Part shown: in pieces, positions 927-61,700 of the stretch
Numbering within the stretch: position 1 is the first letter of the stretch
Layout: each line of letters opens with the position of its first letter
Origin: Nipponacmea schrenckii
Taxonomy: Eukaryota; Mollusca; Gastropoda; Lottiidae
Length of the DNA: 64,000 nucleotides
Reading direction: 5' to 3'
NCBI GenBank assembly: GCA_030562195.1
Contig: JAUJPP010000005.1
Coordinates: 18,401,106 to 18,465,105 of the forward strand
Position numbers and translations under genes: made by a program
The notes under the pieces: model-generated
Database searches by the model: none
What the model was told of the DNA's origin: nothing
What the model saw: the letters and a program-made list of their open reading frames with translations, nothing else

Positions 927-1191
927 CTCATAATTCCCGTTACTTATAATCAATTATTTATGGTTCAGTGCATCTTTAACCCCTAGCTGTACCCCTACAG
1001 AGACATAACCCATTATATAGGCAATAGTATTCTTTAAATTTTTTTTAAACAATCTATTTATTTCAATAAATACACATAAACATACAGCAAATAGCGATAC
1101 AGAAAAAAGCTCAGGGCTATTCTTTAATCACAGTGTCACACTGTCACATTTCTCATAATATTTATGCAAATATTTATGCACTTTAATGAAA

Positions 1192-1480: not shown

Positions 1481-1927
1481 TTTTTGAAGCCAGTTAACAT
1501 CAAACGTAATAACTTCGGTAATCAATTGATTAAGATTAGAGATTTCGTAAGATAAAATTGTAGAGTAAAATTCGAAGTAATATGGTAATAGATGATGCCT
1601 TTTCGGTGATGAACAAATGCTTTCAAAGCACTGTTGTTTATAAAAATCTTAAATTCTATTTTTAACAATATAAAATGACATCTTGTTAATTAATTAAAAC
1701 TTTCCCAAAATAGCTAATACCTATATTATATAATTCAGTTTTAATGTGTTCAGTCAATGGGTCGTTACAAACTAGCTAGTTTGGTTACTGCTTTTAAGAG
1801 GAATAAAAATCTTAGTAATTTACTAGTCCATGGCAAATTGGACCCTATTCCATTAACTCCCTCAAACAATTGAATCATGTTAGTTATATGTATATATTAT
1901 TTGCAAGTATTATTATACTTTAGTCAT

Positions 1928-6790: not shown

Positions 6791-6799
6791 TTAAAAACT

Positions 6800-8870: not shown

Positions 8871-8959
8871 TAATTATACTGCATGTAAGTGATATATATT
8901 GAACTTATAATACTCAAATAATGTGTTAACAAATGTGATACTTGTAAACAGAGGGTTAA

Positions 8960-27184: not shown

Positions 27185-27945
27185 TAGCTACACCTCTTGA
27201 ATAGTCCAGTATTACTTAGTTGACAAGTTATTACCACTTGATCAAAACTTATACTTAACAGTTAAATATTCTGAAATATCTCTGTCCAATCAATGTAGAA
27301 ATTATATAGTCTCAGTCCTGTATTAAATAGTTGACGAGTTATTACAACTGGATCAAAACTTATACTTACCCTTAAAATATTTTGAAATATCTTAGTCCAA
27401 TCAATGTAGAATTATAGTGTCTCAGTCCAGTGTTAATTAGTTGACAAGTTATTACCACTGGATCAAAACTTATACTTACCATTTAAATATTTTGAAATAT
27501 CTTAGTCCAATCATTGTAGAATTATAGTGTCTCAGTCCAGTATTAAATAGTTGACAAGTTATTACCACTGGATCAAAACTTATACTTACCATTTAAATAT
27601 TTTGAAATATCTTAGTCCAATCATTGTAGAATTATAGTGTCTCAGTCCAGTATTAAATAGTTGACAAGTTATTACCACTGAGTCAAAACTTATACTTACC
27701 ATTTAAATATTCTGAAATATCTTGGTCTAATCAATGTAGAATTATAGTGTCTCAGTCCAGTGTTAATTAGTTGACAAGTTATTACCACTGGATCAAAACT
27801 TATACTTACCATTTAAATATTCTGAAATATCTTAGTCTAATCAATGTAGAATTATTGTGTCTCCGTCCTGTATTAAATAGTTGACAAGTTATTACCACTG
27901 GATCAAAACTTATACTTACCATTTACATGTTTTCTATTATTCTCA
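27185..27945. repeat. 110-bp satellite, seven copies
   Basis: The word TTGACAAGTTATTACCACTG recurs at about 27220, 27331 (variant), 27441, 27551, 27661, 27771 and 27881, a constant 110-base step over the last five. Each unit continues ACTTATACTTACC...AAATATTTTGAAATATCTTAG...TTATAGTGTCTCAGTCCAG. Middle copies are nearly identical and outer copies diverge, as expected for unequal exchange. No frame of interest. Confidence 0.9.
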
Positions 27946-28367
27946 TTCAATTGCAGATGATCTCTTATGTCTCTAATCGACTCTGGTTTCTAGTAACCCT
28001 CACGCATTATTATGAATTATAATGCGATATCCACCATGTACATACGTTTGTTTTTCTGTATATATAAGCACTTAGCTTTATTTCTTTACTTCCGTCCTTT
28101 ACATTCCATGACCACATATCTATCCTTTCATTTCACTTATTTCTCGCCATCCATCAATCTTTCTAATGAACACATTGACTTCGTTCACAGCACGTGTACC
28201 ATGGGTGCCTCTAATAGACTTTGACTTTATTTTTCATCTTCAAGGTAAATAACTCTCCTGACCCATCGTGTTCTTGTTAGTATCATCTTAACACATTTTT
28301 GTGATATACCTGTCTCAACTATCTCTAAAATGCGATTCGGTCCTTCAGAAACTCAAGTTATATTTTT
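27946..28367. other. No gene recognised
   Basis: A 70-codon plus frame at 28012-28224 shows no motif and an AT-driven composition. Nothing else is visible. Confidence 0.35.
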
Positions 28368-28400
28368 ATACGCCCTCACATGAAATATATCACAATATAT
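28368..28400 (+). mobile_element. Truncated pearl-like element head
   Basis: TTTTTATACGCCCTCACATG followed by ATATCACAATAT is the head palindrome and first bases of the element family at 13811 and 21872. No core repeats follow; the LINE fragment begins at once. Confidence 0.55.
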
Positions 28401-28940
28401 TGAAAAAACCCAGGTCCTAACATTAAAAACAAATGCATCTCTATAATTCACCAAAACGTACGTAGCCTAACTAATGAAAAAAATCATCAGATCGAGGCAG
28501 CCTTTCATGACATAGACATTTTGACTTTATTGGAAACCTGACTGAATCCGAGCACTGAACCAGAGAAAATTATTATCAAAAACTTACACCTCCCCAGCCT
28601 TTGAAACAGATCCAACACCCTAGGTGTTCTTCTTCTCTCAAACATCGTCCAGAACTTCAATCTGTAGGTCTGGAAGCAGTATGAATTGAAATTAAGAAAT
28701 AAAAGCCGAAACTTTCTTGTTGGTTCCTTCTGCAGGACAACATACGCCCCATCGGAGTACTGGAATAAGATCGTAGACAGTGTTTCAAAAGCCAAGGATC
28801 TTGACAAGCATATATAATCATACTTGGAGATTTTAATGTTAACTTCCTAACCTCGCAAAACAGTGGATTACACAACATCATACGTCACTTTAACCTAACA
28901 CAACTTATCTCGGAACCTATAGGTAGGATAGTTGAATTTA
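28400..28940 (+). pseudogene. LINE endonuclease (EEP) fragment
   Basis: Plus frames with several shifts read DIDILTLLETWL (the Glu motif), LGVLLLSNIVQNF, NFLVGSFCRTTYAPSEYWNK with IVDSVSKAKDLDKH, then IIILGDFNVNFL (the GDFN catalytic motif), NIIRHFNLTQLISEPIGRI. It covers the middle and late part of the endonuclease of a CR1/Jockey-like element. The final Asp-His (SDH) box is absent and no reverse transcriptase follows. Confidence 0.75.
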
Positions 28941-29320
28941 GATGTGACCGCCCCGGGTGTAGGACATAGGACCTTAAAGCGAAATTCACGCTTAATTAAC
29001 CACGCTTGACAATTGAGATGTCAAACTAATGTGATGTCGAACGTAGAAAACGTTGGCGGACTGACAAGTCGGGTGTTGATGTGCTCTGCAAATTTGTCAA
29101 CTGTTCTTGCTTTCCGGTTTTGTTTTGATTTGTACGGTCTATAGATTTCGACTGTGGTATTTTTTCGCTCCCTCTCATCTGAATTAACAGTTTAAAAGTG
29201 GTTTATAAATGTAGCTTATAAATGTGAAAAAATGAGACCACCAATGTAAATAAGCCCAATTCCGGTTGGATTCTGTAATCCAGGAGGTTTTTTTTTTTTT
29301 TTGTTCTTTTTTTTTTCTTA
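28941..29320. other. No gene recognised
   Basis: Between the endonuclease fragment and a T tract (29288-29312, broken by a G) nothing coding is seen. Confidence 0.35.
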
Positions 29321-29324
29321 CATA

Positions 29325-29690
29325 ATGGAGAAACTTAACAGAAAATTAACCCTAATTCCTAACGAATCTTCCAGGCCTAATTCCACTTAATTTATAAGGA
29401 CAATAGCAAAACGTGACATCGATATTTATCAAATGGACTGTTTCCAAAATATAGGACAAGGACGCATATTGGTCACGTTAGACTCCACAGAATCCACAGA
29501 GAAATTCTTAACAGAATTTAACGCATTGGACAAAAAGAATTTGACATAGATTACACGATCTTATACTGAAACTGGTTATATCGAGTCCGAAGGGAGTTCT
29601 CTCCAAGCGGAACTATCATACCAATTAGATGATTGTATAGATGAAGAACGCCCCCCCCCCCTCTGGTATGGACTACAGCCGTAATAACTC
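29325..29690 (+). pseudogene. Putative retroelement ORF1 fragment
   Basis: ATG at 29325 opens a frame MEKLNRKLTLIPNESS..., a stop, then AKRDIDIYQMDCFQNIGQGR, ILVTLDSTESTEKFLTEFNA, a stop, then ETGYIESEGSSLQAEL. The balanced, hydrophilic composition and the position after a T tract suggest an RRM-type ORF1 of a non-LTR element, but I cannot name the family with certainty. It ends before a C run at 29650-29660. Confidence 0.4.
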
Positions 29691-30040
29691 TGAGTTGTTC
29701 AACATCAGCTATAATAAACAACCTGTGATATTGTTCAACTAAACTATTTCATTACTAAATTTTAAGTAAACATATATCTATAATTAAATAAATTACTAAC
29801 ATTTTAACATAATGCACATTCGCACCTTAAATGAAAATAGATGTTTTAAAGACAAAACTTGAATTACAGTCTTAAAAATGTAATATACTATGCCTACAAG
29901 GGACTGATTGTATCAAAAAACTAATATTAGTACTCCACCAGCCACTAGAATCCTTTTATAATCTTTTAAATGTAAATTATCGCTTGCAGATATATTTTTA
30001 AAGTACAACACCCCATAAAGTGTATAATACATAATAATAA
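29691..30040. other. No gene recognised; (ATA)n
   Basis: AT-rich sequence ending in a short ATA microsatellite at about 30030-30050. Confidence 0.35.
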
Positions 30041-30049
30041 TAATAATAA

Positions 30050-31381
30050 TAACTAGAACTGTGAACAGCTCCGAGCATGGCAACTATGCGTTATCCCATG
30101 GATTTCGAACATTTTGAAACTTCTAACCTGCTAGCTTTCAATTCCGGTACTTTTCAGCCTCCAATTGTGGAACAAGCGTAACAATATTGTTAGATCTATA
30201 GACAGCTGATGTCAAGGCCATTCTATATGGAAAATTTCAAGGTCATTGAAGGTGAAGGTCACAAGATTTAGAATTTCAAATTTTTAAAAAATTCAAACGG
30301 GCATAAATAATAAATGACGGACTAATTAAATTTTAAAGAAAATTTGTCATTCTCGGAAAAATGGCGCATGCGCAACTAGCAATTGGAATTTTTTTCTTCT
30401 CGGGGGATACAAATTATTTTGTATAGCTAATATATACTGTTTTTGCTTACATTCTTGAATTACACGGGATGTAGGGTCGCCTGAAATGAGATAAAAAACC
30501 GGAAGTCCCCACGCCCAAACCGGAAGTGATCAAAAAATTTTGATGATATATTTTTAATTGTGTTGCTTATTTATCTATATCCTGTAAATTTCAGATCGAT
30601 CCGAACATTAGAGCCCGAAAGTGTAATATAACCGTCCCAAATTGCAAAATAGTCAGATTTCGGTGGGCTATAAAACCGGAAGTTAATATTTGTCATGCAA
30701 TATCAGCACATCTATAGACAGCTGAGGTCAAGGACATTCTACATCTCAAATGTCAAGGTCATTGAAGGTCAAGGTCACGAGATATAGAGTTTTAAATTTT
30801 TGAAAAATTCGAACGGGCATAAAAAAAATTCAAATTCGAAAATCAAAATTCTGTTCCCAACATTTTTTAGATAAAGTATCAAGGTTTTGATAGACACCAA
30901 AATCATAAAAATCGGTCAATAATTGGCGGACTTTTAAATTTTTAAGAAAATTTGCCATTTTTGAAAACTGCGCATGCGCAACATTCAATTTAATTTTTCT
31001 TCATATCAGGGGATTAAAATCATTTAGTATAGCTTAAATATACTGTTTTTGTTTAGATTCTTGAATTACATGGGAAGCAGGGTCGCTCGACATGAGACGA
31101 AAAAACCGGAAGTCCCCACGCCCAAACCGGAAGTGATCAAAAAATTTTGATGATGTAGTTTTAATTGCGCTGCCTATCTATCTATATCCTGTAAATTTCA
31201 GACCGATCCGACTATTAGGGCCCGAGCTAGCTTGAAATCTTATTTGCATATTATGCAATTAACCACTTTCGGGTTAGCGAAAATATTATGTTAGATATTC
31301 ATTTTTGATTCCAGCCCATATAAAAACCATTGGTGAAAACAAAATTAGTCTATCTTTTTCCGTTTGGGCAAGCGAGCTTCC

Positions 31382-31418
<37 letters not shown>

Positions 31419-31419
31419 A
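30050..31419 (+). repeat. Two-copy tandem repeat ending in poly(A), rich in AGGTCA half-sites
   Basis: Landmarks repeat in order: ATCTATAGACAGCTGA at 30194 and 30710; CAAGGTCATTGAAGGT(G/C)AAGG at about 30238 and 30754; GCGCATGCGCAA at about 30363 and 30967; ACCGGAAGTCCCCACGCCCA at 30498 and 31105. The offset grows from 516 to 607, so copy 2 has an insertion. The block ends at an A run of about 35 at 31383-31417, which fits a retroposed element or the tail of one. No coding frames. Confidence 0.75.
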
Positions 31420-31811
31420 TCCGAACGAAAACAAAGCGTGACAAATTTTATTTGCCACGCAATAATAATTTAGTTTATTAGTTGTGTCACAAATCACAGG
31501 CATAAATATACAACATAATAAGGAATAATAATAGGATTCCCGGCCAAAATTGGCCTATCTGACACTTACAGGTAAAAACATATTTACATATTACAATTTA
31601 AATAAATATACATCTACCTCTAGATTTAAACTATTGATTAGTTCATAAATTAAAACTATTTTCTCAGTATTGTATAAAAATTACAAATAAAACAAAATAA
31701 TACACGGGCTCTCTCTACACTATAGTAACAGTAAATATTGTCTGGTTATTTAAAAGCTAAAATTTTCTGACGTGTTTTATACATATTAGAGAGTAATTTA
31801 CCCAAGTGATA
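31420..31811 (-). other. LINE 3' untranslated region (probable)
   Basis: No frame. The following ORF runs on the minus strand and its stop is at 31812, so this interval is by position the 3' untranslated part of that LINE. Confidence 0.4.
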
Positions 31812-32820
31812 TTAGACGGGCGCCTCACTCATAATAAAATAAAATTTGTCACGTTCCGATAAAAGGCTAAAATTTGAAGACATATTTCGACAAAAGATTA
31901 AAAGATCAGATCTTATACTGTTATAAACGGGGCAATTAATCATCACATGGAACTCATCTTCAATATCATTTTCCTCACAACATTTACATTTACGCCTATC
32001 GAGTGGGGTCGGTGGTTTGGAATAACGTCCAGTTTCAATAGCGATAGGGAGACAACCACTTCTTAACTGGCAAATGATGCGTCTTTGTGACCTTGGTATG
32101 CGGACATCCGTTACATAAAGCTCCAGGGAGAGATCAGTTTTAAACTTCCTGTATGTTCGTAGTTTATTACCGTTAGTATTTTGCCGATCATTAAATAGTT
32201 GTCTATTCCATTCAGCTGAGTCGAAGTTCAGTATTTTGCTTCTTTTTGTGATGAACATATTGGAGGAGAGATGCTTAAGTATACCGAAAATATGCCTATG
32301 TTGATCCGCTCGGAACAACTTGCATAATAATCTGATTCACTCCGCTTTCTGTTTTGACAAACATGAAAGCCATCCCATGTCTCCCCTACTTGCAACATTT
32401 GGTGTGAATCTGCCGAACCCTAAAAAGAATTTCATAGCCTTATTTTGAACTGAATTAATACATGAATATTCCTTTGTACCCCATATTCCCACACACTAGA
32501 ACAAAATAGGCTCAACCAGGTTATTATACAAGTTAGTAAACACAGAGTATGACATTCCACCACATAATTTGAATTTTGTGCAAAGGGCTCCTAGAGCTCG
32601 ACTGGCTGACTTAGCTAATTCGGTAGTTGCCTTTTTCATGTCCAAATGTTCGTCAATCCAAATACCTAAGTATCTGTATACATCTGTGAATTTGATATTG
32701 GATAGACCACATGAAAAATCAAAACTAGATGTAGGGATTGAAGGGATTCTTTAATAAACAATGTTCGATTTTTTGGGGTTGATGTTCAGATTAACACTGG
32801 TGCCCCATTTAGACCAACTC
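31812..32820 (-). pseudogene. LINE ORF2 C-terminal half, 5'-truncated
   Basis: The minus strand starts abruptly at WSKWGTSVNLNINPKKSNIV, then YLGIWIDEHLDMKKATTEL, AKSASRALGALCTKFKLCGG, YNNLVEPILF, GIWGTKEYSCINSVQNKAMK, and an open frame of 168 codons (32318-31812) ending with RRIICQLRSGCLPIAIETGR, RRKCKCCEENDIEDEFHVMI, the zinc-finger-like end of a reverse transcriptase. Two stops interrupt the middle. It is a typical 5'-truncated copy joined at about 32820 to the proline-rich repeat of the next ORF. The part from 31952 upward is duplicated at 33995. Confidence 0.8.
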
Positions 32821-33120
32821 AAAATCCAAATCCAACTCAAAATCCAAGACCAAGTCCAACTCCAAGTCAAACTACAAGCCCAACTCAAAGCGTAACTCCA
32901 AGGCTAAGCCCAACTCCAAGACCAACTCCGAGGCTAAGCCCAACTCCGAGGCTAAGCCCAACACCAAGGCTAAGCCCAACTCCAAGGCTAAGCCCAACTC
33001 AAAGGCTAAGCCCAACTCAAAGGCTAAGCCCAACTCCAAGGCTAAGCTCAAGACCAACCCGCAGTTCACCATCCCCTAGTCCAGCAGACTTTGGTAAACG
33101 TTCTCGTAGAGAAGGTACCC
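32821..33120 (+). repeat. Proline-rich coding minisatellite, copy A
   Basis: Units of CCAACTCCAAGGCTAAGC (18 bases, with 12- and 18-base variants) encode PTPRLS repeats in the plus frame that leads toward the SGNH-like ORF. In this copy an extra C in the run at 33118-33124 puts the repeat out of frame with the following domain. Minus frames over it (ALELGLALELG) are artefacts. Confidence 0.85.
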
Positions 33121-33918
33121 CCCCTTCTCTTTTCCCTTTCAGATTCCTCGCCTACACCATCTGAATCTTCACCACGTGACCCAGGTTCGGTCGACCTTTC
33201 TTCCTTCTGTAAGTTTTTGGATCAACAAACCACCCCGAATTTTCCAACCAGGTCAAGTGTGCCCAGACCATCTCCACCACGAACCAGATCTCAGTCCGTA
33301 CCCAATGCCACATTTGTAACAACTACCAATCCAGTACCTATCACCCCGTCGACAACCATTATATCCGCTACCAAACCCTTTTATCACCAAACCAAGGACA
33401 AGTCATCATGGAATCTACCTGCTCTACAGAAATCTACTTTAATTATTGGGTCCTCAAACCTCAACCGAATTACCAAAACAGCTCCAGACACCGAAATACA
33501 CTCGTATCCTGGTGCCCAAATCCACCACATCCAGTCCATCCTTGAATCTTACGACCATGATCATAAACCGGCTACGATCATTCTGCATGTAGGCCTCAAC
33601 AATCGTGACCAGTTAGCCAAAACCTCATTTAACCAAGCCCAGAAATTAATTTCCACAGCCAACCAAACCTTTCCTACCTCCAAGATCATCTTTTCTTGTA
33701 TACCTATCTCTAATAAAATCTCTAAGAAAGCCCAGCAGAATCTTAAGACATTCAACGATATGATGATGAACTCCGACACTGAGAACGCAACAATCCTGTC
33801 ACCCTACGAAGAAGAATTCGAACCAGTTGATAATCTTCATTGGTCTCCGGAAACAGCCAACAATATATACTTGTTTTGGATACACCAGCTTCAAGCACCG
33901 GGTAAGTCTTTAAACTAA
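33091..33918 (+). CDS. SGNH/GDSL-hydrolase-like ORF1 linked to a Penelope-like element, copy A
   Basis: Open frame of 275 codons. Residues 1-100 are Ser/Pro/Thr-rich and probably disordered. From about residue 115 a compact domain begins: KSTLIIGSSNLNRI (position of the GDS block, with Ser-Ser for Asp-Ser), YPGAQIHHIQSIL, PATIILHVGLNNRDQ (GxND block, GLNN), FPTSKIIFSCIP, and near the end DNLHWSPETANNIY (DxxH block). This is the order of the SGNH esterase fold; such domains are known in ORF1 of CR1-like retrotransposons. The frame ends T TTA AAC TAA at 33909-33918, a -1 slip site into the Penelope frame. In copy A the downstream reverse transcriptase is cut off by the duplication. Start uncertain: the true frame may begin upstream in the proline repeat. 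Confidence 0.7.
   Translation: MVNVLVEKVPPLLFSLSDSSPTPSESSPRDPGSVDLSSFCKFLDQQTTPNFPTRSSVPRPSPPRTRSQSVPNATFVTTTNPVPITPSTTIISATKPFYHQTKDKSSWNLPALQKSTLIIGSSNLNRITKTAPDTEIHSYPGAQIHHIQSILESYDHDHKPATIILHVGLNNRDQLAKTSFNQAQKLISTANQTFPTSKIIFSCIPISNKISKKAQQNLKTFNDMMMNSDTENATILSPYEEEFEPVDNLHWSPETANNIYLFWIHQLQAPGKSLN
33909..33915 (+). promoter_or_regulatory. Candidate -1 ribosomal frameshift heptamer, copy A
   Basis: T TTA AAC in the zero frame of the SGNH-like ORF, followed directly by TAA. A slip by -1 gives TTT AAA CTA ATT ACT, which is the frame that carries the Penelope-like protein. A short GC stem (GGCC...GGCC) starts about 27 bases downstream, further than the usual spacer. GGGTAAGT at 33900-33907 also resembles a splice donor, a rival explanation. 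Confidence 0.55.
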
Positions 33919-33999
33919 TTACTGGGGATAAAAATATTGAGAGGCCGCCGCTAGGCCAAACCGTCGTTAACTTAAGCCGAAAAATTCTCACCTCACTCA

Positions 34000-34860
34000 T
34001 CTTCAATATCATTTTCCTCACAACATTTACATTTACGCCTATCGAGTGGGGTCGGTGGTTTGGAATAACGTCCAGTTTCAATAGCGATAGGGAGACAACC
34101 ACTTCTTAACTGGCAAATGATGCGTCTTTGTGACCTTGGTATGCGGACATCCGTTACATAAAGCTCCAGGGAGAGATCAGTTTTAAACTTCCTGTATGTT
34201 CGTAGTTTATTACCGTTAGTATTTTGCCGATCATTAAATAGTTGTCTATTCCATTCAGCTGAGTCGAAGTTCAGTATTTTGCTTCTTTTTGTGATGAACA
34301 TATTGGAGGAGAGATGCTTAAGTATACCGAAAATCTGCCTTTGTTGATCCGCTCGGAACAACTTGCATAATAATCTGATTCACTCCGCTTTCTGTTTTGA
34401 CAAACATGAAAGCCATCCCATGTCTCCCCTACTTGCAACATTTGGTGTGAATCTGCCGAACCCTAAAAACAATTTCATAGCCTTATTTTGAACTGAATTA
34501 TTACACGAATATTCCTTTGTACCCCATATTCCCACACACTAGAACAAAATAGGCTCAACCAGGTTATTATACATGTTAGTAAACACAGAGTATGACATTC
34601 CACCACATAATTTGAATTTTGTGCTAAGGGCTCCTAGAGCTCGACTGGCTGACTTAGCTAATTCGGTAGTTGCCTTTTTCATGTCCAAATGTTCGTCAAT
34701 CCAAATACCTAAGTATCTGTATACATCTGTGAATTTGATATTGGATAGACCACATGAAAAATCAAAACTAGATGTAGGGATTGAAGGGTTTCTTTAATAA
34801 ACAATGTTCGATTTTTTGGGGTTGATGTTCAGATTAACACTGGTGCCCCATTTAGACCAA
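34000..34860 (-). pseudogene. LINE ORF2 C-terminal part, duplicated copy B
   Basis: Same protein as at 31952-32820: MFRADQQRQIFGILKHLSSN down to CKCCEENDIEDE, where the frame runs into the duplication junction, plus the upstream GIWIDEHLDMKKATTEL part. The missing C-terminus (FHVMINCP and after) is exactly what lies outside duplicated unit A, which confirms the direction of the copying. Confidence 0.8.
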
Positions 34861-35215
34861 CTCAAAATCCAAATCCAACTCAAAATCCAAGACCAAGTCC
34901 AACTCCAAGTCAAACTCCAAGCCCAACTCCAAGCGTAACTCCAAGGCTAAGCCCAACTCCAAGACCAACTCCGAGGCTAAGCCCAACTCCGAGGCTAAGC
35001 CCAACACCAAGGCTAAGCCCAACTCCAAGGCTAAGCCCAACTCCAAGGCTAAGCCCAACTCCAAGACCAACTCCAACTCCAAGCTCAACTCCAAGGCTAA
35101 GCCCAACTCCAAGGCTAAGCCCAACTCAAAGGCTAAGCCCAACTCCAAGGCTAAGCCCAACTCCAAGGCTAAGCTCAAGACCAACTCGAACTCCACCATC
35201 CCCTAGTCCAGCAGA
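34850..35215 (+). repeat. Proline-rich coding minisatellite, copy B
   Basis: Same 18-base PTPRLS repeat as 32821-33120 with about 85 more bases. Here the run of six C at about 35243-35248 keeps the repeat in frame with GTPLLFSLSDSSPTPSES, so copy B preserves the link between repeat and the following Ser/Pro-rich segment. The repeat is thus part of ORF1. Confidence 0.85.
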
Positions 35216-36048
35216 CTTTGGTAAACGTTCTCGTAGAGAAGGTACCCCCCTTCTCTTTTCCCTTTCAGATTCCTCGCCTACACCATCTGAATCTTCACCA
35301 CGTGACCCAGGTTCGGTCGACCTTTCTTCCTTCTGTAAGTTTTTGGATCAACAAACCACCCCGAATTCTCCAACCAGGTCAAGTGTCCCCCAGACCATCT
35401 CCACCACGAACCAGATCTCAGTCCGTACCCAATGCCACATTTGTAACAACTACCAATCCAGTACCTATCACCCCGTCGACAACCATTATATCCGCTACCA
35501 AACCCTTTTATCACCAAACCAAGGACAAGTCATCATGGAATCTACCTGCTCTACAGAAATCTACTTTAATTATTGGGTCCTCAAACCTCAACCGAATTAC
35601 CAAAACAGCTCCAGACACCGAAATACACTCGTATCCTGGTGCCCAAATCCACCACATCCAGTCCCATCCTTAAAATCTTACGACCATGATCATAAACCGG
35701 CTACGATCATTCTGCATGTAGGCCTCAACAATCGTGACCAGTTAGCCAAAACCTCATTTAACCAAGCCCAGAAATTAATTTCCACAGCCAACCAAACCTT
35801 TCCTACCTCCAAGATCATCTTTTCTTGTATACCTATCTCTAATAAAATCTCTAAGAAAGCCCACCCAGAATCTTAAGACATTCAACGATATGATGATGAA
35901 CTCCGACACTGAGAACGCAACAATCCTGTCACCCTACGAAGAAGAATTCGAACCAGTTGATAATCTTCATTGGTCTCCGGAAACAGCCAACAATATATAC
36001 TTGTTTTGGATACACCAGCTTCAAGCACCGGGTAAGTCTTTAAACTAA
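35216..36048 (+). pseudogene. SGNH/GDSL-hydrolase-like ORF1, copy B, frameshifted
   Basis: Same domain order as 33091-33918. One-base insertions at about 35388 (CCCC run), 35662-35676 (CCC and AAAA runs) and 35862 (CCC) break the frame three times. The SGNH blocks remain legible (LIIGSSNLNRITK, ILHVGLNNRDQ, DNLHWSPETANN). It ends with the same T TTA AAC TAA and then continues into the Penelope frame. Confidence 0.7.
36039..36045 (+). promoter_or_regulatory. Candidate -1 ribosomal frameshift heptamer, copy B
   Basis: Identical to copy A, with the full Penelope-like frame present downstream: after the slip the codons read LITGDKNIERPPLGQTVVNL and then SRKILTPLQHSILDRGLKFI, the usual N-terminal signature of Penelope-like proteins. 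No stop occurs between slip site and that signature. Confidence 0.6.
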
Positions 36049-37860
36049 TTACTGGGGATAAAAATATTGAGAGGCCGCCGCTAGGCCAAACCGTCGTTAA
36101 CTTAAGCCGAAAAATTCTCACACCCCTCCAGCATTCAATCTTAGACCGTGGACTTAAATTTATTCCGACTCCTAAATTACCTAACCTTGATTATCTTCAA
36201 CCGTCTATCCAACGTTTTTCAACGGAATCTCAGTTGCACATATTTTTTTTCGAAACCACCCTCCACGCGGTGCTAGAACAATGTTTATTCCTAAATCCAC
36301 GTGGAAACCACCTAAAACCGCTATCCATCCAGAAATGTTAAACGTATTTACAAGTATGAATAACCAAATATCAAATCTTTCCATAAAACACGAGAAGCCT
36401 AATCTAACGCGAGTAGAACGTGAAGCATTAAATGTACTTAAAAAAAAGACGATAGCATTGTAATTAAAAAGAGTGACAAAGGTTCATGTTGCGTTATATT
36501 AAATAGGGAAGATTATATTGCAGAAGCAGAGCATCAATTGAATAATCCTAAACACTATGCAATTTTACCGGAGCCGATTTTTAAAGAAACTGCTAATATG
36601 ATAAACAATATTCTTGCCGACTTAGTTAAAACAAGTCATTTAAAACAGAAACAATAGGGACTATCTTTCTGCCAAATCTGATTGCCGCGGGAGACACTTA
36701 TACATTTTTGCCGAAAATTCATAAGAATCCTACCAAGGATTGGTTCATGCCTAATAGAATCCCTAAAAAGGGCCCCCCGATTATCTCTGACTGTGGTAGT
36801 GAGTCTTATGCAGTGTCAGAATACATCGATCATTTCTTACTACCACTAGCATGTCAACATCGAGCCTACCTTAAGGACACAACTGACTTTGTCAATAAAG
36901 TAAAAAACCTCAAAGTCCCTTCAAATGCTATTCTAATTTCAATAGACGTAACTTCCCATGTACACCAATATCGACAACACTACTGGCCTAATGGCAGTTC
37001 GCAAAGCTTTTGATAGAAACCCAGATCCAGACAGACCCGACGATGCAATTCTACAGCTTTTAGAGATTTGTCTTAGTCGCAATGATTTCACATTTAATGG
37101 TAAAACATATCTACAAAAACCCCAGGTACAGCTATGGGCAAACGATTCGCCCCTTCATACGCAAACCTTTTCATGGCAGAGTGGGAACGTGAGGTATTAC
37201 CCCTTTGTCCATTTGACCCACTTTTCTATGGACGCTTCTTAGATGACATTTTCATGGTTTGGACTTACTCCATAGAACAATTTTGGCAATTTTTTGAAAT
37301 CCTCAACAACCACCACCCGTCCATCAAACTAACAGCCAGCGTCAGTCACAAAAGCATAGATTTTCTCGATACTACTGTTTTTAAAGGTGATTCCATAGCG
37401 GAGACTAATAAATTAGATATTAAAGTATATTTCAAAGAAACCGACACTCATCAACTTTTGCATAAGAGCTCATTTCATCCAAAACATACATTTTCTGGAA
37501 TTATTAAGTCACAAGTTTTACGATTTCACCGAATTTGCACAAGGCCTTCTGATTTCAACCAAGCCTGTACGATTGTTTTTTTCAAAACTGAAAGAGCGTG
37601 GATACTCTAAACGATTTTTACGAAACATAAAAAATTCCACATTAGCACAGTTAGCAGCTAAAAATAGACTTTATGCCGAAGGGCCTCCAGGTTTAAGGAG
37701 TGCCCCATGTATGTCAACCAGATGCAAAACATGTCCCTTTATATCAGAAACGCATTATTTTCAAAGTAACTCTACGAATAAAAGATACCCGATCCAAGAG
37801 CACCTAACATGTGAAAACTCGAATGTAATATACTTAATTTCATGTAAAAAATGTCCCAAA
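36046..37860 (+). pseudogene. Penelope-like element reverse transcriptase, multiple frameshifts
   Basis: The N-terminus has ILDRGLKFIPTPKLPNLDYL, then IVIKKSDKGSCCVILNREDY and LNNPKHYAIL, FLPKIHKNPTKDW, GPPIISDCGSESYAVSEY, SIDV followed in another frame by MYTNIDNTTGLMAVRKAF (the Penelope YTNI box), GTAMGKRFAPSYANLFMAEW-type segment, RFLDDIFMVW (catalytic FLDD for YIDD), SIDFLDTTVFK, HKSSFHPKHTFSGI and KRFLRNIKNSTLAQLAAKNR. At least six one-base shifts, mostly in A, T or C runs, make it non-coding as it stands. Penelope-like reverse transcriptases copy RNA at exposed 3' ends and are telomerase relatives. Confidence 0.85.
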
Positions 37861-38320
37861 CAATAATCGGGGAAACAAAGAACAAATTACGCACTCGTTT
37901 TAATGCTCACAGATCAGATATTAAATTAAAAAAAAGACAAGCCTGTTTCTAACCATTTCAATCTTGACGACCATTCACTTGACGATCTCACCCTAACCCC
38001 AATTGAGCGCATAGAAATCGACTTGCCCGAAGATGAAACTACCAAATTCCGTCAATCTAGAGAAGCCCATTGGATTGAGACATTGAATACAGCAAGACCC
38101 ATAGGACTTAATATTCACCACAGTGTAGGCATAGCACCCTTTGTAGTTCCATTTAATACAACCAGTAATAAAGCAAGTAAGATAGTTCAAACCCATTATA
38201 AGAGTCTTCAAGAGAAATTTCCTCATGTCTATAAACAGAAAACGATAGTGGCATATTCAAAAAATCAGAACTTAAATGACAACCTTGTTCATAGCAAACT
38301 AAAAATAATCTGTACTTAAC
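37700..38320 (+). pseudogene. Penelope-like GIY-YIG endonuclease domain and tail
   Basis: The Cys-rich linker CMSTRCKTCPFIS and HLTCENSNVIYLISCKKCPK is followed by the GIY-YIG core: NVIYLISC is the GIY half, and YIGETKNKLRTRFNAHR is the YIG half, legible after a one-base loss at about 37865 that makes a stop. A second shift in the A run at 37927 precedes HFNLDDHSLDDL. The C-terminal frame (38023-38319) reads REAHWIETLNTARPIGLN, the usual end of these proteins, plus about 60 further residues. Confidence 0.85.
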
Positions 38321-38332
38321 AGGTACTATACT

Positions 38333-38351
38333 ACTCGCCCATCGGGCGAGT
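38333..38351. terminator. Perfect 8-bp stem-loop with T-rich tail at the Penelope 3' end
   Basis: ACTCGCCC-ATC-GGGCGAGT followed by TATTTTATTTTTT, 14 bases after the Penelope stop codon. In a eukaryote this is not a bacterial terminator. It may be a 3' RNA structure of the element, for example for recognition by its reverse transcriptase. The type label is the closest available. Confidence 0.45.
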
Positions 38352-38515
38352 TATTTTATTTTTTCTAATTTCAGATCAGAAGAGAAGAAAATCATCCAAC
38401 AGATCCAGATCCCAATTTCTCAATAAGATATTTGTTCCACCATAGGCCTGTACATTTGGGAGATTCAATCCCTCCCTTCCCCGAAATCCAAGCCCATTTC
38501 TAAATGTTTTTTCTT
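38352..38515. other. Penelope 3' flank, no gene
   Basis: No coding motif between the hairpin and the Harbinger fragment. Confidence 0.3.
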
Positions 38516-38775
38516 TTATAGTATATCAACCATATTTTGTATTCTCTGAACACCTCCTATATCTTCAGAATGAGCTTGGATTATATAATCATTTGGATCA
38601 TCAGCATCAGTCACACAATCATCAAACAAACCATCTCCTATACAGATATTGTGAAGGCAACATGCAACTAGGACAGAATTAACAAGGCCAGTAGGCCATA
38701 CGATTTCTTCTGACATTATTTCATTGGAAAGACAGTAAACCACACGCTTGCAAGATTTGTGAACCGATTTGTGAG
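38516..38775 (-). pseudogene. Harbinger-type transposase, C-terminal exon fused to a duplicated piece
   Basis: The minus strand reads KSCKRVVYCLSNEIMSEEIV with WPTG, then LVNSVLVACCLHNICIGDG, then acidic DDCVTDADDPNDYI to a stop at 38516. LVACCLHNICI is the C-terminal signature of PIF/Harbinger DDE transposases. The preceding 24 residues belong to the N-terminal third and are a second copy of 40508-40588, so the two parts are joined out of order. Confidence 0.7.
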
Positions 38776-40262
38776 CGATTTTGATGTAACTTGGAATGAG
38801 TATTTGTAATCACCTAAGGACGAACCCTATTGAAATTCAGTTAAATGGAAAAATATTTAGTATCAGTTATTGCCCTTGTGTTTGAAAACGCGTTGAATTT
38901 TAGCTTGTATGCACTCTAGAAAGAACAATTCTTAATGGATTTTGATAAAACTTGGCTTGAGTATTTGTTTTTACCCAAGGATGAACCCTTTTGAAAATCA
39001 AATAAATCGAAATATATTTAGAGTCATTTATTGCCCTTGTGTTTGATAACCGTTTAACAATTTGGCTTATAAACACTCTAGAAGACACAATTCATGACCA
39101 ATGTTGAAAAAACTCACTGAAATTGTTTGATATCACCCAGGGAGGAGCCGTATTGAAAATTAAAAATATCAAAATATATCTAATATGAATTTTTGCCCTT
39201 GTTCTTTTAAACGTGTTTGATTTTTGTCTCGTAAACACTCTACATGGCACAATTCTTGACCGATTTTCATAAAACTTGGTGTGAGAGTGTGTTTTTACTC
39301 AAGGATGAATCATATTGAAATCAGCAAAATTGAAAAATATTTAGTATGAGTTATTGCCCTTGTTCTTGAAAACACGTTTAATTTTAGCTTGTAAACACTA
39401 TAGAAAAAACAATTCTTAATGGATTTTGATGAAGCTTAGTTTGAGTATTTGTTTTTACCCAAGGATGAACCCTATTGAAAATCAGATAAATCGAAAAATA
39501 TTTAGTACAAGTTATTGCCTTTGTTCTTAAAAACGCATTCAATTTTAGTTTGAAAACACTCTAGAAAGAACAATTTTGAATGGATTTTGATGAAACTTGG
39601 CTTTAGTATTTGTTTTAGTATGAGTTCTCGCCCTTGTTCTTGAATGTCTCGTAAAAACTCTACAATGTGCAATTCTTGACTGATTTTGATGAAACTTGGT
39701 GTGAGAGTATGTTATAACTCAAGGATAAACCCTATCGAAAATCAGCGAAATCGAAAAACATTTAGTATGAGTTGTTGCCCTTGTTCTTAAAAACGCATTC
39801 AATTTTAGTTTGAAAACACTCTAGAAAGAACAATTTTGAATGGATTTTGATGAAACTTGGCTTTAGTATTTGTTTTCTCCCAAGGATGAACCCTATTGAA
39901 AATCAGATAAACCGAAAAATATTTAATGTCAGTTATTGCCCTTGTTTTTGAAAACGCTTTAATCTTTTGGCTTGTGAACACAAGTTCATTTTTTCGCTGA
40001 AATTGTTTGATATCTCTCAAGGAAGATCCCTATTAAAACTATCAAAATATTATTAAGGGTGAACCCTATTGCAAATCATAAAAATACCGAAAAATATTTA
40101 ATGAATTGTTATAAGGTACTATTCCTAACATTTTTAATGAAACTAGAGTCCCTAGAAAAAAAGTATATGGCGGAAGGTTGAATATTTCAGTCCACCAATT
40201 GTTACCTTACTGAAAATTTTTTATTCAAAATCAATGCTGCCAGTGGGCGTATATTACCTTAC
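38776..40262 (+). mobile_element. Pearl-like minisatellite insertion in the Harbinger gene
   Basis: Seven to eight core repeats of 150-165 bases, each with CTCTAGAA(A)GAACAATT...TGGATTTTGATGAAACTTGG...CCAAGGATGAACCCTATTG...TTATTGCCCTTGT. The core is that of 16750-17668 in the opposite orientation. The 3' end is AATGCTGCCAGTGGGCGTAT...TACCTGGCAAGCTATC at about 40222-40277, matching the end at 24125-24164. Short frames inside are repeat products. Confidence 0.75.
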
Positions 40263-40264
40263 CT

Positions 40265-40356
40265 GGCAAGCTATCTTTTCTATTGATGTATGATGCGGCT
40301 TGATGTTTTGTTGCTGTGATCCGTATATGCGATCCATCGATGGCTCCCACGATACC
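40265..40356 (-). pseudogene. Harbinger-type transposase, DDE exon
   Basis: The minus strand begins after an acceptor-like TTTTTTTATTTAAG with GIVGAIDGSHIRITATKHQA and ASYINRK. GAIDGSHI contains the first catalytic Asp of Harbinger transposases and YINRK is the following conserved block. The exon is then broken by the pearl-like insertion at 40262. Confidence 0.8.
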
Positions 40357-40449
40357 TTAAATAAAAAAAGATCAATCATTTATTAACTACAAAATTCGAA
40401 AATTTCTTATGTATTATGAAAATACAATATGTTGTTAGAAGGATCAATC

Positions 40450-40640
40450 GAATATTAAAATGCCTGTGAGATCGGTAAATTCTTCCACAATATGTTGTAA
40501 TGTATCTCCAGTAGGCCATACGACTTCTTCTGACATTATTTCATTGGTAAGACAGCAAACCACACGCTTGCAAGATTTGTGAACCGATCATTTTGGTACT
40601 CCGAATCGATCAGACATTGACCTAAAGCTCTCAAGGTTGC
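40450..40640 (-). pseudogene. Harbinger-type transposase, middle exon
   Basis: The minus strand reads NLESFRSMSDRFGVPK, one stop (TGA), SVHKSCKRVVCCLTNEIMSE with EVVWPTGDTLQHIVEEF and TDLTGI. This is the helix-turn-helix-like N-terminal part that precedes the DDE domain. Removing the presumed intron 40357-40449 joins it to GIVGAIDG. Confidence 0.7.
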
Positions 40641-40859
40641 TTAAAATATATGACATAATATATCCTTAATGCATAATTTGCATATTATTTAACGTAGCAT
40701 GTCAAGAGCCTGACGAGCAGATTGTGCTGTTTTAACAATAGAGCACGACTGCCAGCTGATTAGACGTCGCAGGTATAATTATGTTTAATTATATAGATAA
40801 ATTACAAAGTTAAGATAAACCTGTTAGAATTATAGCCAAATCATTTCAAAATAAACTTA

Positions 40860-41015
40860 CCGAGATACCAACAGCACATCAAAGCTTGTTTTTCGATAGT
40901 GATTGATGTGCCCCCGCCTTGTTGCCTCGCTTCTACCATGACTGGGCATCTCCCAAGCCGTTGAACTAAAAGATCAAATGAGCACCTGGTTAAACGAAAG
41001 TGTCCTTGAAATGTC
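40860..41015 (-). pseudogene. Harbinger-type transposase, N-terminal exon
   Basis: The minus strand reads ILTFQGHFRLTRCSFDLLVQ with RLGRCPVM and KQALMCCWYLG, ending at a good donor (CG|GTAAGT at about 40860). FRLTRCSFDLLVQRL corresponds to the FRMSRESFDxLLxxL block at the start of Harbinger transposases. Confidence 0.7.
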
Positions 41016-41021
41016 AAGATA

Positions 41022-41260
41022 CTAGTATCTTGGTACAGTTTCTTCTGCGTATCCTTCTATTCTACATACTTTATTTTGTTTAGAAGCTTGGAAGTAGAAA
41101 TACGCAACAAAGCTATCATTTAGGGGATTCATATAATTTGTCAGTGCCCGGGATTTACGCTGGAGTAACAAAAAAGCGGCACAGAAACGCATTTGCCTTC
41201 TGTCGCCTTCCATTTTGAATTCCCCGGGTTCCAATCGCGTATCGGCACAATCACCCGAGT
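41022..41260 (-). CDS. Short frame upstream of the Harbinger transposase
   Basis: 70-codon minus frame with MRFCAAFLLLQRKSRALTNY and SFVAYFYFQASKQNK. It lies directly 5' of the transposase N-terminal exon and out of frame with it by a shift near 41020. It could be the true N-terminus of the transposase or an unrelated exon. No recognised domain. Confidence 0.3.
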
Positions 41261-41375
41261 AAATTGTGACGTCACACTTCCATACTCTGGGAAGACCTAG
41301 GGATGTCGCTCGAACACGACCAAGCTTGTGTTACGGGAACAGGGAGTAGGTAAGGGGGTGCCTCAATCCTCGTTT

Positions 41376-41762
41376 TTTTCTGAAGCAATCTGCTTATGGA
41401 TGATCGCTTTTCCACGTTCGGTTCGAATGTTCATTAGTTGTTCTAGGAGTAACAGTAATTCTGTACCTTTACTCTGAATTTCATCGACCGTATTGTGCTC
41501 AGCCACGGACCCATTTGAGAGCTGTTAACGTGTGGTACACTGAATTGACCCAATAACGCTGTAGTCTTTGACATCGTCGTCTGTGGCTTCGACGTTGAGG
41601 CCTTCCTTGTTGACTTACTTGTAGTGGGATGACTGTTTTCGAACACGGTTTACCCATCGTTTATGGGAGATTCTTCGTCCTCCATTTCATAATTACATGG
41701 CTTAAACACGTCTTTGAATTTCCAACCGGCTGTACTTCGTCGAGTTTGTACCTTAGACATAT
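41376..41762 (-). pseudogene. Uncharacterised gene fragment next to Harbinger
   Basis: ATG at 41762 (minus) opens MSKVQTRRSTAGWKFKDVFK with PCNYEMEDEE, a stop at about 41653, then a Ser/Thr-rich stretch (SHPTTSKSTRKASTSKPQ), and in a third frame a helical segment KGTELLLLLEQLMNIRTERG with KAIIHKQIASEKNED and a stop. An acceptor-like TTAACAG precedes the last segment, so it may be two exons. Harbinger elements carry a second, DNA-binding gene beside the transposase; this could be it, but no Myb/SANT motif is visible. Confidence 0.35.
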
Positions 41763-43240
41763 TTCATTTTGATTTTTTCAGAGACTTTACAAAAGCCCTT
41801 AGGCAAAATGGAGGAAGCGTGAAGCGTGAGTTGCTATGAAAACGAGGCAGCGAACTTTGCACTAAGGTGAAGGACACGTCATCTAAAAATAGATTTACTA
41901 CCCTACATTTTTTTTTATTTGTAACCTTTGTAAGTACTTTTATGGGACTATGTTCTCAATGAATAATTTTCAATTTAAAAATAATTATAATGTATATATT
42001 CGAAGATTTTTTTTTTAACCGTCTGTGAATTTTGTAACTAAACATTTAAAACGTTTTTATTCAATGCACACAGACACACCACATCTGGCAAATCAATCCA
42101 ACCCTTCCCTGAAAACTAATGTATATATGTTTTTCTGATATATTTACTAAAACAGCCACCATACTTCTACAAATATGATGGACCTTTATCAACAGTATCA
42201 ACTATAAAAGCCAGGTAGGTCACGATCATTACAACTTAATGTTAAAGGGATTCTACAGATTATTGGAATAAAGGGAAAGCCAAGTGTAATGCTGATGGCA
42301 GTTCTGGCAATAACCATACCAAAGAATATTTGAATATCAAAGAGACCTTCTTCACTTGCCCATAGACGACGAACGAGGTCTTAGCCTTCCCGTTGATGTA
42401 CACGAAGAGCGCTTTATGCAATAAGAAAGGCATCATCACGCCGCATACCCCTACCAAATAGAAGTCACTTCAGATAATACCGACCCATTTGTTTGACCAT
42501 GACTCTATGTTAACCATTTGAGACGTTGGTCAATAAAAGACTTGGCTACTAATTTGAATTAAATGGTCATATCGATCTCAATCTTAACGGTAGAGAGCGA
42601 AGCGATCATCAATGGTTCAAATTGTTCGACTTAACATCTCACAAGGAAGAACTACATCAGTGCAGTATTTGCCCATAGGCTAATTCCATTCAGAATGTTA
42701 CTTTTTACAGATTTTTAAGAACTTAAATTTTCTTTGATTTTTTCACATAAAATAGTTAGATGATTATTGGCTTTTCAAACTCAGCAAACATTTTCTGCTT
42801 TCTTTATGTCATGTGACTTGCGGCCATCTTGAATCTGCCTATTTAGCCTAGTTTAAGAAAGGTAGTAGAAAGGGAGTCATTTCAACTCTATTAAAACAGT
42901 GTTTTTATACATAAAAAAAAGATTTTTTAAGGGGTAAGTTTTGTTTTTATTACATAGATTATGTATTCCGGTGTCGCAACGCATAAAAAAATTCAATCAG
43001 ATTTTACTTTCTATCATAAGAAAAATTGAATTTAATTCATTTTTTAAAATGTTACGTTAGTTACACAGTTGAGTATGTAGAGTAGTTACTTGAGATTCAG
43101 ATTTTCTTGAAAAATACTTTGATAAAATGATTTGCATGATATAAAAACAAAATTATTCGCATTGAAAATATTGTATTTAATTTAAAAGTGTAACTGACGC
43201 AACGTAACTGACTAGATTTATGTTAATTTACAAGAATTTG
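41763..43240. other. No gene recognised
   Basis: AT-rich. A 65-codon minus frame at 42260-42457 is hydrophobic but matches nothing I know. The interval contains T runs at 41910 and 42010. Confidence 0.35.
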
Positions 43241-59150: not shown

Positions 59151-60474
59151 ACAGACACGGCATGTTTATTTACGCATGTAACTAATAACTTGTAGGAATG
59201 TGTGATTAACTTATTAGCAATATAGAATGGACTACAAATACTAAATGAATGTGAAAATTATAAATAATACTTCACTAATAATACTGGATGAATGTGGTAA
59301 ATATTTAACAAATAATACTGAATGAATGTGATAAATTTTTGACTAATAATACTGGATGAATGTGATAAATATTCAACAAATAATACTGAATGATTGTGAT
59401 AAATTTTTGACTAATAATACTGAATGAATGTGATAAATATTTAACTAATAATACTAAATGAATGTGATAAAAATTCGACTAATAACACTGAATGAATGTG
59501 AATATTTAACAAATAATACTGAATGAATGTGATAAATATTTGACTAATAATACTGGGTGAATGTGATAAATATTAAACTAATAATACTAAATTAATGTGG
59601 TAAATATTTAACAAATAATACTGGATGAATGTGGTAAATATTTGACTAATAATACTGGATGAATGTGATAAATATTAAACTAATAATACTGAATAAATGT
59701 GATAAATATTTGACTAATAATAATGGATGAATGTGATAAATATTTGACTAATAATACTGAATGAATGTGATAAATATTAAACTTATATTACTGAATGAAT
59801 GTGATAAATATTTAATTAATAATACTGAATGAATGCGATAAATATTTAACAAATAATACTGAATGAATATGATAAATATTTGACTAATAATACTGAATGA
59901 ATGTGATAAATATTAAACTAATAATAATGAATGAATGTGATAAATATTTGACTAATAGTACTGAATGAATGTGGTAAATATTTGACTAATAATACTGAAT
60001 GAATGTGATAAATATTTAACTAATAATACTGAATGAATGTGATAAATATTAAACTAATAATACTGAATGAATATGATAAATATTTGACTAATAATACTGA
60101 ATGAATGTGGTAAATATTTGACTAATAATACTGAATAAATGTGATAAATATTTAATTAATAATACTGAATGAATGTGATAAATATTTGACTAATAATACT
60201 GAATGAATGTGACAAATATTTGACTAATAATACTGAATGAATGTAAGAAATATTTAACTAATAATACTGAATGAATGTGATAAATATTTAACAAATAATA
60301 CTGAATGAATGTAAGAAATATTTAACTAATAATACTGAATGAATGTGATAAATATTAAACTAATAATATTGAATGAATGTAAGAAATATTTAACTAATAA
60401 TACTGAATGAATGTGATAAATATTTAACTAATAATACTGAATGAATGTGATAAATATTTGACTTATAATACTTA
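59151..60474 (+). repeat. Leader U copy 3 and 34-bp satellite array
   Basis: U copy 3 (59151-59280; three bases shorter in the T run than copy 2) leads into about 35 satellite units. Runs of the pattern TTTGAC / ATTAAAC / TTTAAC units repeat as blocks. The array stops abruptly at ACTTATAATACTTAGGGACT, where the LINE fragment starts. Confidence 0.9.
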
Positions 60475-60477
60475 GGG

Positions 60478-61700
60478 ACTTAAAAAAGCATTTGATTTAG
60501 TGGATAGGATCTTCCTACTGGTTGAGCTTCACTCGGTAGGGGTCAGCAGTAAAATGACAAATATGATTAAATCAATGTATCAACAATTATATAGTGTTTT
60601 AATCCTAATTATCAGATTTTTTTTTATAGTTTTTCAGGAGTGAAACAAGGTGAACCACTCACACCATTTCTATTCTTGTTATTTACTAATGTCATTGAAA
60701 ATTGTCTTGATAGTGATGACCGAGATTTAGTTAAAATATGTAATACCATAATTTACTTTTTGCTTTTTGCAGTGGATAAATCTATCGGATAAATTTGGCT
60801 TTTAATGTAGTAAATGGAAACTTGAGATAAATGCCAATAAATCTAAAGTGATAGTATTTCATAAGGGGAAGCTATCACTGTATTCCGGTTTTAAAATTGA
60901 TAACACAACGCTAGCAATTGTAAAAGAATATGTATATCTCGGAATTGTATTCTATTATAACGGAAAATTCCTTAATGCTGAGAAGAGACTGGCGTCTCAA
61001 GGGAGGAAAGCCCTAGGTTCCGTAATTTCATCTCTTTATAATATATATACGTATATAAATACTAGAAATAATTGCGTTGTTTATAAATCCTCTGTGGCTT
61101 CGGTTTCAATGTATGCCTGTGAAATATGGGGATTTTTGTCTGGAAAATCTATTGAAATAATCCAAAATGATTTTGTACGATGTCTTGCGTGTTGGAAAGA
61201 AGGCGCCACTATGCGCTGCATGAGCCGAAATTGGTTTATTACCATTGTCCAAAATTACAAAAGTAAGATTAATAAAACATTGGAGTAAGACAATACATTC
61301 AGATAATCCTCTTATTTCAGTCATTTCTAAAACTCTGTATAGATGATTGTAATGGTAAAATTAATTGGATCTCAATGAAACAGGGTTTTCATACTTCTTT
61401 CAACAACCACAATTATTCAACTATTCTTAAATTAAAACACGTATTATAGACCAATTCCACCAAGAATGGTTCGCATCCTTAGAGATATCTAGTAAACTTA
61501 GGTTTTATAAAAAAATATAAAATTAATTTTCAATTTGAATCATACCTAGATCCTTATATTTCTTCTATATACATATTACTTATTTGTCATTCCGTTGTGG
61601 TAGCCTTTAATTAAATGGTGAAACTAGTCGATACACTAAAATCCCACGCGATAAAAGATATTGCTCATGTTGTTACTCGAAATATATTTACATTTACTTT
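60478..61700 (+). pseudogene. LINE reverse transcriptase fragment inside the satellite
   Basis: Plus frames: DLKKAFDLVDRIFLLVELHS (first catalytic Asp, 5'-truncated just before), FSGVKQGEPLTPFLFLLFTN (motif B), IYFLLFAVDKS (damaged YADD), KLEINANKSKVIVFHKGKLS, YVYLGIVFYYNGKFLNAEKR, SQGRKALGSVISSLYNIYTY, YACEIWGF, then NGKINWISMKQGFHTSF and a Cys pair (KRYCSCC) at the C-terminus. Frame changes occur near 60620, 60770 and 61290. It is the same lineage as the minus-strand LINE at 1928-4960. Satellite units resume at about 61720. Confidence 0.8.

Follow-up and report, generated by a model that had tools for sequence, protein, structure and literature searches.

Evidence for a likely −1 frameshift junction between an SGNH hydrolase-like ORF1 and the reverse transcriptase frame of a Penelope-like element in the limpet Nipponacmea schrenckii

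How can the polymerase of a retroelement be produced when its open reading frame (ORF) lies in the −1 frame relative to a preceding ORF that ends in its own stop codon? This question is raised by a Penelope-like element (PLE) of the limpet Nipponacmea schrenckii (Lottiidae), found in a stretch of 64,000 nucleotides (contig JAUJPP010000005.1 of assembly GCA_030562195.1, positions 18,401,106 to 18,465,105 of the forward strand), which is referred to here as the window. The transposition cycle of Penelope is poorly understood and, to our knowledge, the endonuclease-bearing (EN+) Penelope elements have been described as single-ORF elements. The comparisons presented below favor, at a probability of roughly 0.86, a PLE in which an ORF1 with an SGNH domain overlaps an ORF2 that lies in the −1 frame and encodes a reverse transcriptase (RT) and a GIY-YIG endonuclease, the two being likely joined by frameshifting at the heptamer U UUA AAC. 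A minority of ribosomes would slip back one base at this heptamer, at the end of ORF1, and would yield a fusion of ORF1, RT and endonuclease in addition to the ORF1 protein; we infer the slippage and its rate, as well as a need for both products in a ratio similar to that of Gag and Gag-Pol. The comparisons support the core idea of a preliminary description of the locus, made from the sequence alone, which had linked an SGNH ORF1 to a Penelope-like RT/GIY-YIG by a −1 frameshift at UUUAAAC.

The features of the window that make up the element are the following (positions in the window, with their basis in brackets).

31952-33991, no strand assigned: upstream tandem unit (BLASTN self-comparison, 94.5% identical to 33995-36121; ORF list)
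33046-33918, + strand: ORF1 copy 1, open 3' part of 290 codons including the SGNH domain, ending in TTA AAC TAA (ORF list; DNA matches)
33397-33915, + strand: SGNH hydrolase-like domain with the blocks GSSN, GLNN and DNLH (structure model, Foldseek/VIA, profile match)
33909-33915, + strand: heptamer T TTA AAC, copy 1, followed by TAA (motif scan)
33995-36121, no strand assigned: second tandem unit (BLASTN self-comparison)
35194-36048, + strand: ORF1 copy 2, 3' part, frame-disrupted, ending in TTA AAC TAA (ORF list; DNA matches)
36036-36341, + strand: start of ORF2 in the −1 frame, VFKLITGDKNIERPPLGQTVVNLS...ILDRGLKFIPTP (ORF list; core conserved in relatives)
36039-36045, + strand: heptamer T TTA AAC, copy 2, with a predicted −1 slip to TTT AAA C (motif scan; locus comparison)
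36093-36173, + strand: conserved Penelope N-terminal core VVNLSRKILTPLQHSILDRGLKFIPTP (comparison with relatives)
36174-38319, + strand: RT and GIY-YIG endonuclease, spread over several frames in the window copy (ORF list)

The interval 33091-38330 had been described as one element, a delimitation that was not borne out, since two tandem copies had been merged. Each tandem unit is about 2.04 kb long and contains an antisense fragment that by eye resembles a long interspersed nuclear element (LINE), a tract of proline/serine repeats and the 3' part of ORF1; the upstream unit (31952-33991) includes the junction as well. TCT TTA AAC TAA closes the 3' part of ORF1 in both units (33909-33918 and 36039-36048, counted from the T of the heptamer). 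No RT follows the upstream unit, and the Penelope-type RT and GIY-YIG adjoin the second unit only. The open ORF1 of 275 codons reported earlier is real, carries the SGNH blocks and ends in T TTA AAC TAA, but it sits in the upstream copy, at 33091-33915, without an RT. Likewise, the junction into the RT frame is present after the second ORF1 copy, but that copy (35194-36048) is disrupted.

The nature of both proteins was established with the help of more complete copies. From 33058 on, ORF1 copy 1 matched the ORF1 of other copies at 98-99% in DNA, and a fuller ORF1 of 557 codons was found in the near-identical genomic copy L041. (L041 and L043, which lie at two places on contig C3, share 6000 bases without a difference, the product of either a recent segmental duplication or a duplication in the assembly.) The structure model of the SGNH domain had a predicted local distance difference test score (pLDDT) of 90.4 and, as the preliminary description had expected of a fold search, its matches in Foldseek and VIA were SGNH hydrolases, in keeping with an SGNH fold; the best sequence-profile match was the ORF1 esterase 4c1b (E 4e-8). 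The Asn and His blocks (GLNN, DNLH) are both present in the window copy. The catalytic Ser (Ser 20) was invariant in 9 of 9 aligned rows, and the aligned His column holds Gln in the protein P0115. Sixteen of the 20 protein matches of ORF1 came from Lottia gigantea, with 69-86% identity over the aligned parts, and the other four carried no species name. The model of the whole ORF1 (pLDDT 60) was usable only in its helical and SGNH parts; the layout is predicted to run from a disordered N-terminus through a helical bundle and a basic linker to the SGNH domain, and it suggests that the protein may form ribonucleoprotein particles or associate with membranes.

An uninterrupted −1-frame RT/GIY-YIG ORF of 756 codons was found in the near-identical copy L044. 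Its residues 593-681 matched GIY-YIG (PF01541) with 30.2 bits against a cut-off of 22.6, and RVT_1 scored 27.2 bits, just under the Pfam cut-off of 29.6. At E≤1e-3, 1684 relatives of the RT were retrieved, and among the 120 listed the core LGxxVVNLS..KGLKFIPTP, which we take to be a mark of Penelope proteins, is conserved. A Penelope-type RT with this N-terminal core and a C-terminal GIY-YIG are both present, and on these sequence features the element is assigned to the Penelope-like (EN+) group. A repeated arrangement was also seen, in the tandem 2-kb units of the window and in a repeated ORF1 in the distant locus L045. A hammerhead ribozyme motif has been reported for many PLEs and is not universal; no Rfam hammerhead match was obtained in window positions 28000-42000 or in L041, L044, L045 and L046. 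No relative was detected in IMG/VR, in phages (queried with the RT of L045) or in plasmids (queried with the RT of L044).

The same genome was surveyed by a protein search with P0056, a relative of about 48% identity. Among 5523 candidates, 59 were scored; loci were made from 20 rows, and of the remaining 39 a further 20, picked with a preference for differing open-frame lengths, were added. The surveyed loci sorted into seven families, A (that of the window) to G, with 41-86% mutual identity over the first ~83 residues of ORF2 (L054 standing for A) and 28-39% identity to L045; E and F are close enough to count as subfamilies. The SGNH ORF1 of every family representative ended in T TTA AAC and an immediate stop, and ORF2, in the −1 frame, read FKL. 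The stop directly after the heptamer was TAA in A and E, TAG in B, C, D and G, and TGA in F, and the codon before TTA varied (TCT, CCT, CAT) while always ending in T. TTTAAAC was kept in 64 of the 65 loci of this genome with an alignable ORF1 tail (43/44 in family A and 21/21 in the other families). For this count 70 loci were given, with four places occurring twice; L073, L075, L077, L081 and L090 had no alignable tail, and L039-L044 were omitted as repeats of places already counted. The ORF1-tail probes derive from the family representatives, and the count was backed by a separate look for any heptamer. A column test of the heptamer on the representatives was circular, since these had been picked for TTTAAAC, and was not relied on; a genome-wide count of all TTTAAACTAA was of no use.

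Six more distant loci (L045-L050) were obtained from a scan of prokaryotic assemblies, where they probably represent host contamination. L045 comes from a single-cell assembly of Epulopiscium, a gut symbiont of surgeonfish, and its element is probably of fish origin. It has an SGNH ORF1 of 616 codons and T TTA AAC in phase, and its RT, with 45% identity in the best segment, lies in the −1 frame; its ORF1 stop lies four sense codons past the heptamer. A conserved heptamer of the form X XXY YYZ, in the 0 frame and inside the overlap, was therefore seen in families A-G and L045. As far as sequence can show, the overlap, its phase, the conserved heptamer and the ORF1 stop recur in seven families and one probable fish element, and the proposal that further copies keep ORF1, the heptamer and the −1 phase held in the further families. 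In a side observation, animal PLEs were present within assemblies labelled as Epulopiscium (L045), Enterovibrio (L046) and a mussel symbiont (L047), and P0141, a hypothetical protein of 748 aa from one such assembly, is annotated as bacterial.

This recurrence bears on the idea that an unrelated SGNH gene, for instance from a CR1-like LINE, came to lie next to a Penelope element by accident. An SGNH ORF1 is a typical feature of CR1-like LINEs (PMC3905857), and antisense LINE-like fragments, judged by eye, lie near each window copy:

33993-34379, − strand: antisense coding fragment, LINE-like by eye (ORF list; kept outside the element definition)
31812-32336, antisense: second LINE-like fragment, by eye (ORF list)

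However, this ORF1-ORF2 junction recurs at dozens of sites, in seven families and the probable fish element, a fusion of SGNH and RT in a single ORF exists (P0115, 951 aa), and esterase ORF1s in PLEs have already been published (PMC3905857). The LINE-neighbor model was rejected because the junction recurs across places and families, and a chance association is extremely improbable.

Selection on the two frames was estimated as the ratio of nonsynonymous to synonymous substitution rates (dN/dS) by NG86 in six non-independent family pairs (E-F twice, D-E, D-F, C-G and B-C). In five of the six pairs dN/dS was 0.07-0.17 for the ORF1 tail, 0.08-0.21 for ORF2 and 0.18-0.34 for the first 25 codons past the heptamer in the −1 frame, the sixth value of each set being saturated. 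These values, below 1 in both frames as the dN/dS check proposed for the junction required, bear the mark of purifying selection in both. Since such selection acts in the −1 frame just past the heptamer, this stretch is presumably translated in that frame, which an intron would not explain. Moreover, the heptamer of the representatives is kept at positions that are synonymous in both frames (the wobble T; TTA and not TTG or CTN; AAC and not AAT), with dS between families ranging from 0.3 to saturated.

An intron that removes the ORF1 stop had been named as the observation that would overturn the proposal; it was looked for in the sequence and not found. A short intron from GTAAGT at 36032 to CTAG at 36084 or CTTAG at 36144 would join the frames, and the only candidate with a consensus donor is this one:

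36032-36084, + strand: candidate mini-intron GTAAGT..CTAG, 53 nt, rejected (donor missing at the junction in families B-G and L045)

Family A does have a perfect GTAAGT donor beside the heptamer, with in-frame acceptors, and a Penelope ORF with a spliceosomal intron has been reported (PMC3846280). By contrast, use of the 36144 acceptor would cut out the conserved VVNLS core, GTAAGT is missing at the junction in families B-G, no GT was present in L045 between 3044 and 3166 (GT donors being those sought, with GC donors possible), and an exact-pattern search for copies without the interval to 36144 gave 0 matches. The protein-level selection in the −1 frame just past the heptamer was, in addition, found in families B-G. 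Splicing at the junction was rejected outside family A on the confinement of the donor to that family, the loss of the core and the selection past the heptamer, and it is a very improbable explanation overall.

Traces of the junction were also sought in the proteins of relatives. In total, 240 RT relatives were listed (120 of 1684 and 120 of 2799 matches, the second search having been capped at 7984 candidates), and the counts that follow refer to those listed; 112 were dropped for too short an N-terminus and 33 for want of an anchor, and in 95 the sequence begins 10 or more residues before the core. The motif [FVIKG]K[LP] stands upstream of the core in 66 of these 95, although some of the matches are incidental (P0038, P0115, P0147). 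FKL accounted for 42 of them; a separate count gave 14 VKL, three KKL and two GKL. These tripeptides are compatible with UUUAAAC, GUUAAAC, AAAAAAC and GGGAAAC, respectively, as deduced from protein. Residues −4/−3 fitted NTG-Gnn at 51 of 59 sites, which would be the out-of-frame reading of an ORF1 Trp codon and would match the W-x-x-x-L-N end of SGNH ORF1s. Where Met stood at −4, a codon starting with G followed at −3 in 44/44 cases, versus 70/158 controls. A trace of the ORF1 stop, [LIV] followed by a codon starting with A or G at +6/+7, was seen in 44 of 46 L045-related sequences (21 at the best other offset). Although they concern DNA that was not seen, these traces fit one architecture.

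The strongest competitor to frameshifting is that ribosomes translate ORF2 independently, either reinitiating after termination or initiating internally close to the ORF1 stop, with the heptamer as a by-product of protein constraint. An in-frame ATG does lie four codons before FKL in families D, E and F, where initiation would be possible; many predicted proteins of relatives begin at −4, though such predictions may use TTG or GTG (P0141, the protein listed for L045, begins at TTG). In L046 (a metagenome-assembled genome of Enterovibrio, 42% identity) an SGNH ORF1 and the RT overlap in −1 phase (L046:1045-1093) without such a heptamer, and an ATG of the RT frame overlaps the ORF1 stop, apparently an alternative way to couple the ORFs. 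On the other side, in families A, B, C and G and in L045 the −1 frame contains no Met upstream of the conserved core, the ATG at −4 arises because the ORF1 Trp codon (A TGG) forces that reading, and the heptamer is retained at the doubly synonymous positions despite the dS values given above. Independent translation of ORF2 is therefore considered unlikely.

The in-frame ATG codons and L046 count against the frameshift reading, and so do several further observations. L071 (G000:C10:4954705-4955855), the sole exception in the heptamer count, has an altered heptamer and both ORFs in one frame of 986 codons, and L072 keeps the heptamer and has lost the ORF1 stop. Variation among the young copies of family A showed no codon-position bias, in an alignment that took in flanks foreign to the element. 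Among the listed relatives, 29 of 95 lack [FVIKG]K[LP]; most of them start too far downstream to tell, and two carry FRL or FKC. P0025, P0030, P0034 and P0036, however, extend far enough to show the motif and lack it; P0025 shares 61% identity with the ORF2 of L044. Copies lacking ORF1 or the heptamer had been named as a further refutation: the families of the limpet genome keep both, but L046 lacks the heptamer and no SGNH ORF1 was detected by motif scan in L047-L050 (28-37% identity). Because only one of the six distant loci (L045) has the slip site, with another coupling in one and ORF1 apparently missing in four, the two-ORF slip-site arrangement is not universal in PLEs.

The RNA downstream of the heptamer likewise offered little help to the frameshift reading. 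No stable structure was detected in the seven limpet families (z > −0.8 over both 60 and 110 nt), 9 of 60 shuffles were as good as the window sequence in a hairpin/pseudoknot scan, and a helix scan on the seven-family alignment gave nothing convincing. A candidate hairpin and pseudoknot lie 6 nt downstream of the heptamer in L045, but they were weakly better than shuffles (as good in 28/200 and 37/200, and in 4/60 and 2/60); 1 of 60 mononucleotide shuffles equalled the pseudoknot. A G-rich run that starts 7-8 nt past the heptamer (columns 14-20 of alignment A4) is common to the seven limpet families, with G16, G17 and G19 invariant in 7/7.

Some observations stand apart from these arguments. 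In L049 the Penelope-type RT ORF (814-3159) is preceded by an unrelated-looking ORF (206-868) in −1 phase, and no heptamer of the scanned list was found in their overlap. L090 (G000:C1:6364106-6365256) shows an apparent internal deletion that joins ORF1 to the RT core in an open frame of 1289 codons. The window also contains satellite-like tandem arrays at 6792-8929, 59230-60495, 27203-27933 and 38772-40050, of which the first two have repeat units in common at a distance of ~50 kb.

The SGNH domain is closest in profile to the ORF1 esterase of the CR1/L2 element ZfL2-1 (PDB 4c1b). ZfL2-1 is a CR1-type LINE, and its RT and endonuclease belong to another class. An SGNH esterase in the ORF1 of PLEs has been published, from RepBase entries (Schneider et al., 2013, PMC3905857), and esterases of "Neptune-like PLEs from fish and mollusks" have been mentioned (Rodriguez et al., 2017, PMC5408684). 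The present elements resemble these in the combination of SGNH/GDSL esterase and PLE and in their fish and molluscan hosts; a place in the Neptune clade is suggested only by the remark in PMC5408684. In the available text, neither paper addresses expression of the RT ORF: "frameshift" is absent from PMC3905857 and is used once in PMC5408684, for the gag-pol of long terminal repeat (LTR) elements. Similarly, the sole frameshift mentioned in the available text of PMC2678813 concerns a Gypsy expressed sequence tag. No description of recoding in Penelope-class elements was found in the literature, subscription journals and RepBase notes lying outside the search. The lineage had been presented as a possibly undescribed two-ORF Penelope; as its SGNH ORF1 was already known in PLEs, what appears to be new, as far as the literature was searched, is the recoding signal.

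Canonical EN+ Penelope shares with the limpet element an RT followed by a C-terminal GIY-YIG and repeated or tandem copies. The founding Penelope is described as a single ORF (PMC3846280), whereas the limpet element has a distinct ORF1 upstream of ORF2 and in a different frame. Rotifer terminons and Athena also combine a Penelope-class RT with GDSL esterase ORFs (PMC6431247), but they are endonuclease-deficient, up to 40 kb long and rich in ORFs, unlike the compact two-ORF element with GIY-YIG described here. In Table 1 of PMC3835772, UUUAAAC, GUUAAAC and AAAAAAC appear among the heptamers at which coronaviruses, equine arteritis virus and astroviruses shift frame. UUUAAAC is the same in the limpet, GUUAAAC and AAAAAAC being deduced from relatives' proteins only; the limpet case differs from the viral sites in that no downstream pseudoknot was detected in its families and that the host of the site is a retroelement.

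It is likely that a large and ancient branch of animal PLEs, from limpets to fish, makes its polymerase in the manner of Gag-Pol through a nidovirus-type −1 site after an SGNH ORF1. The sites of relatives would then read GUUAAAC, AAAAAAC or GGGAAAC, and some lineages would have swapped the site for direct fusion or an overlapping start codon. If this is true, a further class of retroelements would, like retroviruses and many LTR elements, set the ratio of ORF1 protein to polymerase in this way, and the conserved recoding site would link the SGNH ORF1 to the machinery of replication. Annotators would gain a rule for the true start of ORF2, which has no ATG in several families, and the question of whether Penelope forms particles would become directly testable.

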